A stretch of DNA of 38,037 nt. Source: Rhodospirillaceae bacterium (GTDB taxonomy: Bacteria > Pseudomonadota > Alphaproteobacteria > UBA828). How positions within the stretch are numbered: position 1 is the first letter of the stretch; each line of letters begins with the position of its first letter. Below, one piece after another: positions 25,341 through 30,000 of this stretch. The stretch covers positions 1 to 38,037 of the forward strand of contig JABIXB010000019.1 of assembly GCA_018666805.1 (NCBI GenBank). The letters run 5' to 3'. Both the position numbers and the translations under genes were made by a program. The notes below the pieces were generated by a model that saw nothing but the letters and a program-made list of their open reading frames with translations, did not search any database and had not been told where the DNA came from.

Positions 25341-26942
25341 ATGACAAAAAAAGACTCCGGCCCCTGTGATCACTGCCCCATTTCCCGCGCTCTCCTTTCG
25401 GTATCCGACAAATCGGGCCTCGCGGAGTTTGGAAAATTTCTGAGCGCGCAGGGCGTTGAAATCCTTTCCACCGGCGGCACCGCGCAGACGCTGCGCGACG
25501 CTGGCATCGATGTGAAAGATGTTTCCGAGCATACCCAGTTTCCGGAAATGCTCGACGGCCGGGTAAAAACCCTGCACCCGAAAGTGCATGGCGGCATCCT
25601 CGGCATGCGTGACAACCCGGCGCATCAGGAAGCCATGCAGGCACATGACATCCAGCCGATCGATTTGGTGGTGGTCAATCTCTATCCGTTCGAGCAGACG
25701 GTGGCCGGCGGCGGCGACTTCGACGACTGTATCGAGAATATCGATATCGGCGGCCCCGCCCTGATCCGCGCCGCGGCCAAAAATCACCGCGACGTGGCGG
25801 TGGTGGTCGAGAGCGCCGACTATCAAAAGATCATGGCTGAAATGAGCGAACTTAACGGCGCGACATCGGCTGGTTTGCGCCGCTCGCTCGCGGCCAAGGC
25901 CTATGCGCGCACAGGCGCCTATGATTCCGCCATCGCCGCTTGGTTTGCCGGCCAGGAGGGCGAGCGCTTTCCCGAGCGCCTGTCTTTTTCAGCCCGGCGC
26001 CGGCAAATGCTGCGCTACGGCGAGAACCCGCATCTCGGCGCCGCCTTCTATAGCGGCGGCGCAGACCGCCCGGGTGTCGCCAGCGCCAAGCAAATTCAGG
26101 GCAAGGAGCTGAGCTACAATAATCTCAACGACACCGACGCCGCCTTCGAGCTGGTGGCGGAATTCGATACTCCCGCCATTGCCATCATCAAGCACGCCAA
26201 TCCGTGCGGCACGGCGCTCGGCGCCGACCTGAAAGAGGCCTATCTGAAAGCGCTGGCCTGTGATCCGGTTAGTGCGTTCGGTGGCATCGTCGCCGCCAAC
26301 CGGCCGCTTGATGGCGCCGTCGCCGAAGAGATTGCCAAGCTGTTCGCCGAAGTGGTGATCGCACCGGATGCGGATGCGGCGGCGCTGGAAGCGCTTGCGG
26401 CCAAGAAGAATCTGCGCGTGCTGTTGACCGGCGCGATGCCCGATCCCGGTTCGCCCGGCATGACGATCAGGCAGTTAAGCGGCGGCTATCTGGCGCAGGA
26501 GCGTGACAATGGCCGCATCCAGCGCGAGGACCTTAAGACGGTGACCAAGCGGAGCCCCAGCGCGGCCGAGCTTGAAGACCTGATCTTCGCCTTCCGCATC
26601 TGCAAGCATGTCAAATCAAACGCCATTATTTACGTCAAGAACGGCGCCACGGTCGGCGTCGGCGCAGGCCAGATGAGCCGGGTTGATTCGTCGCGCATCG
26701 CCGCCTTGAAAGCGGCCGAAGCCGGCCAGGCGGCGGGCCTCGAACAATCTCCGGCGATCGGCTCGGTGGTCGCGTCGGACGCCTTCTTTCCCTTTGCCGA
26801 CGGCCTCATTGCCGCCGCCGAAGCGGGCGCCACGGCGATCATTCAACCGGGCGGCTCGATGCGCGATGAGGAAGTGATTGCAGCGGCGGATGAGAAGGGC
26901 CTGGCCATGGTGTTCACCGGCATGCGCCACTTCCGCCACTAA
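25341..26942 (+). CDS. purH: bifunctional AICAR transformylase/IMP cyclohydrolase
   Basis: [39 protein letters not shown]...[14 protein letters not shown]...[14 protein letters not shown]. Confidence 0.97.
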
Positions 26943-26986: not shown

Positions 26987-27083
26987 CCGGAATGCTTCAT
27001 GCATTCCGGCAAGCGCGACTGCGCGCCCGAGTTAATACGAGGTAGCCAAGGGAGTGGACGCGACCCGCCCGGCGTCTGAGGGA
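26987..27083. repeat. Structured intergenic element, copy A
   Basis: About 80% identical to 33715-33810; 18-nt identical core GCGCCCGAGTTAATACGA; perfect 9-bp stem CCGGAATGC-TTCAT-GCATTCCGG. Confidence 0.85.
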
Positions 27084-27093
27084 TCACTTATTA

Positions 27094-30000
27094 TTAAGCG
27101 ACGATCAGCTCGCGCATGTGGCGGTTGGCGAGGGCGAGCTTGGCGAGGTCGAGCGCACCGGCGCTTCGGAGATCTTCGAACAATGCCGTCGCGCGCTCGA
27201 ACACGCCTTCATTGTCCGCCACCCAATTTTCCACCGCATCTTCCGGCGCGCTGCCTTCCGAGGCGACCAGCACGGTACGGCAGAGGGCACGCTGCTGCGA
27301 ATATAGATCCTCGATAATGGCGGCAACCGCGCGGTGCTGCCAGTGATCGCCGGCGAGCAAGGGCTGGGCGCCATCGCGCAGCCATTCGAGATTGAAGCGC
27401 GCGCCGAGTTGAAAATAAACTGCCGCCGTGGTCGGCACGGAAAGCTCGGATTGGCGCGCCACCTCGACAATATCGCAAGCCGGGATCATCGCCTCGACCG
27501 AGGCGACGAGGCGGGCCAGCTTGTCAGGAACGCCGGTCTTGCCGAATTTGGTCTGGCGCGCACCCATATTGGCCAACCCCGCTGGCGAGAGCACGGTTTC
27601 AATCACGCCCTCCAATTCGGCAACGCCAGTCCCGAAATCGGCGATGGCGCGCGAGACATCGAGCGGACGCGGCCGATTGCTCAACAGCCACATGGTATGG
27701 TGCGTCAACAGTTTGTGAAATTCGCCAAACATGTCGAGCTGCACGTCGCTGGCAATCTTGTTGTCGAGCGCCTCAATCGTCTGCCAACTGCGCCGCAATT
27801 GATTGACATTGCGCGCCGCCAAATAGGCGCGCGCCACATCGCCCTGGCCACAGAGCCGTTCCTCGACCACCTCGGTGACGAAGCAAACGCCGGCGCGGTT
27901 GACCAAGCTGTTGGCCACCGATGTGGCAATGATCTCACGCCGCAGGCGATGGCCTTCAATACCGCCGACATGCTCGGCGCGCAGCGGGGCGGGAAAATAG
28001 AGCATCAGATCATCGCCGAGATGAGAATCTTCCGGCACATCGCTTTCCAGCAAACCATCGTTGAGCGACATTTTTGCGTGCGCCAAAAGCACGGAGATTT
28101 CCGGCCGGGTCATGCCCTGGCCGGCGTTCGCCCGCTCAATGAGCTCGTCTTCGCTGGGCAAGCCCTCGACTTCGCGGTCGAGCTGGCCACGGCGTTCGAG
28201 CGTGCGCATCAGCCGGGCATGTGAATCGAGGCGTTCCGGCGCATGTGCGGCCTCGGCACTCACCGCCTGGCTTTGCAGATAATTATTGCGCAACACCAGC
28301 GCCGCGACTTCATCGGTCATGCGGTGCAGGAGCTCGTTGCGCTCTTCCTTGTTGATCGCGCCCTCGGTTATCGGGTTGGCAAGGGCAATCTTGATGTTGA
28401 CCTCATGGTCCGAACAATCCACCCCGGCGGAATTGTCGAGCGCATCGCTGTTGATCTTACCGCCGGCGGCGGCGAACTCGATCCGCGCCGCCTGGGTCAG
28501 AGCCAGATTGGCGCCCTCGCCGATGACGCGGCAGCGCAGCTCCGAGGCCGCCGCGCGCACCGACGCATTGACCCGGTCACCGATCTCGCCATCACGCTCG
28601 CCACTGGCGCGGACAAAACAACCGATGCCGCCGAACCACAGTAAATCCGCCTCGGCGCGCAAGATGGCGGAGATCAGCTGGTTGGGCGTCAGCGATTCTT
28701 CCTCAACGGCAAAGCAGGCGCGCGCCTCAGCCGTCAAAATTACCGATTTCGCGCTCCGTTCGGCAATAAAGCCGCCGACCGACAGGCCCTGGTAATCGCT
28801 CCAATCGGAGCGCTCCTGGTAAAACAGACGCTTGCGCTCTTGAAAGCTGGCTTTGGCATCGGGATTGGGGTCGACGAAAATATGGCGATGGTTAAACGCC
28901 GCAAGCAGGCGGATATGTTCGGATTGCAGCATGCCATTGCCGAATACATCGCCGGCCATATCGCCAATACCGATGACGCTAAAATCCTCGCTCTGGATAT
29001 TGCGGCCGAGCTCGCGGAAATGGCGCTTCACCGATTCCCACGCGCCGCGCGCGGTGATGCCCATCTTCTTGTGGTCATAGCCATCGCGCCCACCCGAGGC
29101 AAAAGCATCGCCCAGCCAGAAGCCGCGATCGATCGCCAATTCGTTGGCGATGTCGGAGAAGCTGGCGGTGCCCTTGTCGGCAGCGACGACAAGATAGGGA
29201 TCGTCCTCGTCAAAGCGCACCACATCAATGGGCGGAATGATGATATCGCCTTCGCGGTTATCGGTTATATCGAGCAGGCCGGAAATGAAAAGCTTGTAGC
29301 ATTCGATCGCTTCGGTGTGCAGCGCCTCGCGCTCCGCCGGCGGCCGCTTGACGACAAAGCCGCCCTTGGCGCCAACCGGCACGATGACCGCATTCTTGAC
29401 CATTTGCGCCTTCATCAGGCCAAGCACTTCAGTGCGAAAATCCTCGCGCCGGTCGGACCAGCGGATGCCGCCGCGCGCCACTTTTCCACCGCGCAAATGC
29501 ACGCCTTCGACGCGCGGCGAATAGACAAATATCTCGACCAACGGCCGGGGCGCCGGCAAATCCTCAAGCTCGCGCGAATCCAACTTGATGGCCAAATAAG
29601 ACTTACTGCCGCCGGCGGCCGTTTGCTGAAAATAATTAGTGCGCAGGGCCGAATCGATGACATTGAGAAAACGCCGCAAGATGCGATCTTCGTCGAGGCT
29701 GGCAACACCATCGAGCGCCGTTAAAATATTACTGCGCAATGTTTCGGTATTGCCGTTCGGCCCGCCCGCCGGGTCGAAGCGCGCGACGAACAGCTCGGCC
29801 AGAGAGGCGGAAATAGATGCGTTGCGAGCCAGCGTCTCTTCCATATAGGGCTGGCTGAAGGGGATGCCCGCCTGGCGCAAATATTTGCTCACCGCGCGCA
29901 GGATCGCGACCTCACGCCACTGCATGCCGGTGCGGATGACCAAATGATTGAAGCCGTCATCTTCGGCATCGCCGGCCCATATGCGGGCAAAGGTTTCCTG

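Follow-up and report, generated by a model that had tools for sequence, protein, structure and literature searches.

The window, by which is meant the whole 38,037-nt stretch of DNA that was analysed, contains two pairs of convergent genes, and the gap within each pair is occupied by one copy of a short structured element (Table 1). Copy A begins 44 nt beyond the stop codon of purH and ends 11 nt before the stop codon of the converging glutamate dehydrogenase gene, and copy B lies between gdhA and a converging aldolase gene. An earlier sequence-only reading had recognised a structured intergenic element here, present twice with an identical 18-nt core, and both of these proposals were borne out. 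The core, GCGCCCGAGTTAATACGA, occurs at 27023-27040 in copy A and again in copy B, with no third site in the window; the chance expectation for the window is 0.05 matches even when 3 mismatches are allowed, and none of 100 shuffled sequences gave two. The model spans of both copies extend on either side into weakly conserved sequence; the element unit measures about 95 nt, or about 125 nt with these weakly conserved ends.

Table 1. Genes and element features at the two loci, in window coordinates (arms of hairpins are given as 5' arm/3' arm).
Feature	Position	Strand	Evidence or remark
purH (AICARFT/IMPCHase), left of copy A	25341..26942	+	PF01808, E 6e-124
Copy A (model span)	26987..27082	+	R1 model match, E 5.7e-22
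H1, copy A: CCGGAATGC-TTCAT-GCATTCCGG	26987..27009	+	9/9 pairs with two-sided changes across lineages; arms 26987-26995/27001-27009
H2, copy A: GCGC-GACT-GCGC, conserved CAA before it	27013..27024	+	100% paired in 30 copies; arms 27013-27016/27021-27024
H3, copy A: CCGAGT-TAAT-ACGAGG, 6 bp, central tandem G.A/A.G	27027..27042	+	contains most of the shared core
H4, copy A: GCC...GGC clamp enclosing GGGAGT-GGAC-GCGACC, tandem G.A/A.G	27045..27073	+	covariation; clamp GCC 27045-27047/GGC 27071-27073 around 27050-27055/27060-27065
Conserved 3' tail, copy A: GTCTGAGGG	27074..27082	+	GCCCGGCRNYTGAGGG 84 times in the genome
Large NAD-glutamate dehydrogenase, right of copy A, convergent	27094..31977	-	PF05088, E 2e-246
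GdhA-type glutamate dehydrogenase (gdhA), left of copy B	32245..33618	+	PF00208, E 5.9e-74; PF02812
Intrinsic-terminator-like hairpin 3' of gdhA, separate from and upstream of copy B	33649..33678	+	13-bp stem, T run
Copy B (model span)	33715..33809	+	R1 model match, E 4.3e-23
H1, copy B	33715..33737	+	
18-nt core, copy B	33751..33768	+	identical to copy A core
H4, copy B: GCC...GGC clamp enclosing GCGCGC-GGAT-GCGCGC, all Watson-Crick	33773..33800	+	sequence, fold
DeoC/LacD-family aldolase, right of copy B, convergent	33818..34717	-	PF01791, E 7.1e-19

What had been described as a pair of copies is part of a large family. A covariance model built from 30 copies (R1, from alignment A1; its E-values are rough) found 92 matches with E up to 0.01 in the genome from which the window derives (G000, 3.92 Mb on 317 contigs). 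In the same genome the core occurs 55 times at up to 3 mismatches, as against 7 for the reversed control, and the reversed control of the 3' motif GCCCGGCRNYTGAGGG gave 0. Matches to this model were obtained in 21 of 60 relatives, with 77, 71, 36, 11 and 1 in the sister species of the genus. A second model (R2; E-values likewise rough), which covers the 5' half of the element and was built across genera, matched at least 16 of 395 class-sampled genomes and at least 15 of 282 genera, and a phylum-wide sample gave at least 14 hits, every one in Alphaproteobacteria; with 14 candidates scored per genome, the class- and phylum-wide counts are lower bounds. The exact core or consensus is carried by Kiloniella species, an Emcibacter MAG, several marine MAGs, Sphingobium plasmids and Nitratireductor, and the spread across the Alphaproteobacteria is patchy. 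In these draft genomes, a large number of contigs break off at the repeats.

The unit is predicted to fold, on the given strand, into a succession of four hairpins, H1-H2-H3-H4. Two helices of the earlier reading were recovered as H1 and H2, together with the differences between the copies that it had cited in their favour, a U-A to U-G change in the first and a compensation of C-G by A-U in the second (GCGA/TCGC in copy B). Its third helix (GACGC/GCGTC) can be drawn, but it had to be given up, as it shows zero two-sided changes in 30 copies and its pairing does not exceed that of shuffled columns, with 474 of 500 shuffles equal or better. The supported 3' hairpin is the nested H4, in which a clamp surrounds an inner stem, and the segment joining helix 2 to the 3' part, which had been thought to diverge freely, is itself a hairpin, H3, with tandem G.A pairs. 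The broader proposal that selection acts on the fold gained strong support from two-sided changes, seen at 25 of the 27 base pairs when 75 matches of other lineages were compared, and from the more than 100 copies added to A and B as a test of the helices, in which the helices are kept.

Within the window's genus, the pairs of H2 are exchanged among C-G, G-C, A-U and U-A (30 copies), and those of H4 among G-C, C-G and A-U. In the cross-genus alignment the closing pair of H3 covaries between U-A and C-G. Two-sided cells numbered 35 in the window-genus alignment, against 7.4 after shuffling. The corresponding counts were 153 against 21.7 for 126 matches and 302 against 77.8 for 75 matches from other lineages, the latter including all nine H1 pairs and the three-pair H4 clamp; both of these alignments had been fitted to the model, which biases their counts in its favour. 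A cross-genus MAFFT alignment (A3), on which the structure was drawn by inspection, gave 85 two-sided cells against 26.5 shuffled. The folding energies of copies A and B alone were not significant (z about -1.0 and -1.3), and the evidence for the predicted fold is comparative, not energetic.

A tandem G.A/A.G step, or its Watson-Crick replacement, is common to three of the four hairpins. In H3, the consensus of which is CCGAGY-NNNN-RCGAGG, the central step is found in 120 of 145 copies, and in 6 of the 145 it is substituted by Watson-Crick pairs (CGCGCC-TTAT-GGCGCG). The GA and AG halves of H4 are coupled in 39 copies and uncoupled in 3, and in Emcibacter and NORP118 the H1 hairpin reads, by inspection, CCGAAG...CTGAGG, again with tandem G.A. 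Moreover, G.U was counted 23 times and A.C 5 times, one near-fixed G.U pair being excluded. The tandem G.A steps and the G.U bias therefore indicate that the folding strand is the given strand, since the other strand would have T.C and A.C mismatches in their place. To judge from the sequence, these strand-specific features would fit RNA and single-stranded DNA alike.

The genomic setting of the family is strongly skewed. When copies were pooled, 59 lay between convergent gene pairs and 6 between divergent ones (p 5e-12; gene calls by a simple codon-usage script, two fold-back contig-end loci being left out), and in tandem gene contexts 26 copies were sense and 15 antisense (p 0.12). Convergent gaps are almost filled by the element, the median distances to the two stop codons being 37 and 9 nt. 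A copy on plasmid pMSHV of Sphingobium herbicidovorans (L285:2481-2573) is situated in the spacer between the 16S rRNA and tRNA-Ile genes, and as it is sense, within the 16S-23S spacer and directly before tRNA-Ile, it should belong to the pre-rRNA; in S. indicum (L286) the element has a similar rRNA-spacer position, with H2 and H4 expanded. At another locus (L256:1357-1591) a TPP riboswitch is followed by the 5' part of the element and then by the start codon of the next gene, which is thiC-like by eye; an expression platform would be expected at the place that the element occupies. Neighbouring transcripts would probably be affected in their ends or spacing, as a side effect.

Some copies are arranged as head-to-head inverted pairs, 12 of which were found in Kiloniella and in IMG/VR contigs, with gaps of 11-40 nt; none was seen in G000. 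On three of the IMG/VR contigs (L280, L281, L282) element pairs lie within clusters of portal, terminase, capsid, tail-terminator and glycoside-hydrolase tail genes, with four pairs inside 14 kb on L280, and these clusters look more like chromosomal gene-transfer-agent clusters than like phages.

For ten loci, the ends of the flanking genes were looked for in five sister genomes (G001 to G005), and the junctions were then read wherever the sequence was available. The site of copy A is filled in G003 with its orientation unchanged, and that of copy B is filled in G000 and without the element in G001 and G003. At the site in G001 that is orthologous to that of copy B (L241), the gdhA terminator is flanked by short tandem repeats of the GGGGCCTGAATTGACC and CGGTGTCTTGGC types. 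Besides A and B, four loci have gene-abutting empty sites in two or three relatives, some of them with intact junctions of -4 to +5 nt. The L030 site is filled in G000 and G001 and is a 5-nt junction in G003, G004 and G005; the L035 site, filled in the same two genomes, is a 3-nt junction in G003 and a contiguous alignment in G002, with part of the site in G005; at the L041 site, filled in G000, the stop codons overlap (-4) in G001 and G004; and the L003 site is filled in G000, G001 and G003 and measures 15-40 nt in G002, G004 and G005. Gain is favoured over loss because G005, with its one weak match, is empty at both the L003 and the L030 sites. Some empty sites could be deletions, and part of the pattern of presence reflects vertical retention, since some sites share copies between sister species. 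The very compact empty junctions and the filler DNA beside the insert are atypical of simple transposition.

As regards a mobilising enzyme, no match to the Y1/RAYT transposase family (PF01797) was obtained in seven of the genomes (G000, G001, G002, G004, G770, G169, G214). Retro-mobility through a standard reverse transcriptase was rejected, as G000 has no match to RVT_1. Seven Y1 genes were found in six other genomes; the one in G003 (L289:31-834, 222 aa) has the element on one side, a single copy 40 nt beyond its stop codon, and the other Y1 genes had no strong element match in the loci examined. Mobilisation by a RAYT was set aside, and the G003 gene was rejected as a REPtron, as its association with the element is one-sided and its surroundings carry, by eye, a different inverted repeat of the GTGACA / GGGGACAG type. 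Target-site duplication gave p values of 0.03, 0.11 and 0.76 in three sets, a signal in one set, and for terminal inverted repeats the complementarity of the flanks was no higher than that of shuffled pairs. No autonomous version was seen, and among the H1 hairpins listed (exact pattern) all but one adjoin a 3' module; an autonomous copy could be hidden at draft contig ends. At two contig ends of G000 (C123, locus L018, and C91, locus L016) the left flank recurs inverted right after the element, over 151 and 64 nt respectively, and these fold-back ends are probably assembly artefacts at repeats.

It seems probable that copies A and B are members of a class-wide, non-autonomous, REP/REPIN-like mobile repeat, the folded single strand of which is recognised by a putative factor acting in trans. 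As in REP/REPIN, this folded strand would be the form in which the putative enzyme recognises the element for copying or movement; insertions would persist chiefly between gene ends, the places where they are least damaging, and the fold would be retained since copies unable to fold do not spread. A discrete transcript is not the favoured explanation, because the element is a dispersed, insertion-polymorphic family and not a two-copy RNA. Dispersed intergenic hairpins, inverted dimers and a strand-specific folded unit are shared with REP/REPIN, which also prefer convergent and unidirectional gene ends (PMC3733652, PMC3116915). In contrast, REP/REPIN consist of one palindrome of 20-40 bp, whereas the element comprises four hairpins over about 95 nt; their GTAG tag is not constant in the element, which has GGTAG in the window's genus and GGAAAGCC, GGATAGCC or GGCAGCC elsewhere; and they are moved by RAYT/TnpA-REP, whereas several element-bearing genomes have no Y1 transposase match. 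Since a constant GTAG tag and a flanked Y1 transposase are both missing, the element is described as REP-like in its working and not as a member of the REP family. To MITEs it is likened by being short, non-coding, non-autonomous and insertion-polymorphic, and it differs from them in having no long terminal inverted repeats, and perhaps also in target duplication, on which the three sets disagree.

A rather unlikely alternative is that the element is a cis-acting RNA of 3' or 5' untranslated regions, the hairpins of which would shield mRNAs at their ends, direct processing or serve as a protein-binding site, with recognition through the tandem G.A pairs and the GGA loop in H4, and with copies kept for their benefit. 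A role at the RNA level might also exist beside mobility. The strand specificity of the G.U and tandem G.A pairs agrees with such a role, as do the sense Sphingobium copy in the rRNA spacer, the copies within gene-transfer-agent-like operons and the copy that separates the TPP riboswitch from the start codon. Nevertheless, the sense bias in tandem contexts is not significant, copy B is preceded by a terminator of its neighbour at a place where two sister genomes are without the element, and close relatives differ in its presence at orthologous sites, all of which argues against this alternative.

That the element belongs to an alphaproteobacterial repeat already described is very doubtful, the comparison being one of descriptions, although class, size, intergenic site and folding are alike (PMC2229807, PMC2573895, PMC3733652). 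The Caulobacter CcrM-associated CIR is about 110 bp long, intergenic and conserved among Alphaproteobacteria, with hairpin arms and a linker (PMC2229807), but its terminal loop has a conserved GANTC, the CcrM site, which occurs in 13 of 191 element spans and sets the two apart by description. RIME and the A/B/C motifs of the Rhizobiaceae are mosaic palindromic intergenic elements with dozens of copies (PMC2573895); when the element consensus was searched, plasmid matches came from Sphingobium and Nitratireductor, and none from Sinorhizobium. The CGTC-tagged REPs of Alphaproteobacteria have a spotty distribution and no dedicated transposase known (PMC3733652), but they are single palindromes of 20-40 bp with a CGTC end, whereas the element has no constant CGTC end and is far longer than a single REP. 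The earlier failure to recognise a named RNA family was upheld by Rfam, which gave 0 matches in the window at the gathering threshold and one unrelated weak hit at E<1. Phage and plasmid records gave no match with the whole of copy A as query, and the 17-nt core, in either form, was absent from the open-licence papers searched; the claim of novelty is limited in scope to Rfam 15 and the open-licence literature.

Least probable of all is a bidirectional terminator or boundary element of convergent genes, as might be supposed from more than half of the placed copies lying between such genes and often taking up the whole gap, for the hairpins of A and B are followed by no T run on either strand, empty orthologues work with overlapping or 3-5-nt junctions, and gdhA already has its own terminator.

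Fold evidence this strong is rare among dispersed bacterial repeats, and with the covariance model any genome can be searched for the family. The REP-like repeat raises the question of how an element of four hairpins is mobilised in genomes that give no match to the usual REP transposase, and the recurring tandem G.A step offers a specific handle on a binding protein. A more far-reaching proposal, which may be entertained tentatively, is that a class-wide structured repeat with one tandem G.A recognition step shared by its hairpins is read, as a folded single strand, by a factor of its own, distinct from both RAYT and reverse transcriptase, and would represent a new non-autonomous mobile nucleic acid or a domesticated RNA-binding platform.

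The family also varies in architecture. In a subtype with the core GAGCTTATGCGA (L045, L048-L050, L191, L192 and others) a fifth palindrome like ACAACGGGTCATTCTCATGACCCGTTGGTA often follows, and at loci of the CAJXFT sister species (L079, L112, L123 and others) there are often about 100 nt more 3' of the element, with a CTTCTCCCCAACCCCTCTTCCCC...GGGAAGAGGGG hairpin. Composite copies (L005-L007, L022, L031-L034, L055, L093) carry an extra H4 module at H2 or form tandem arrays, that at L033 having a unit of about 73 nt. Modules shuffle among copies, and one site can be simple in one sister species and composite in another.
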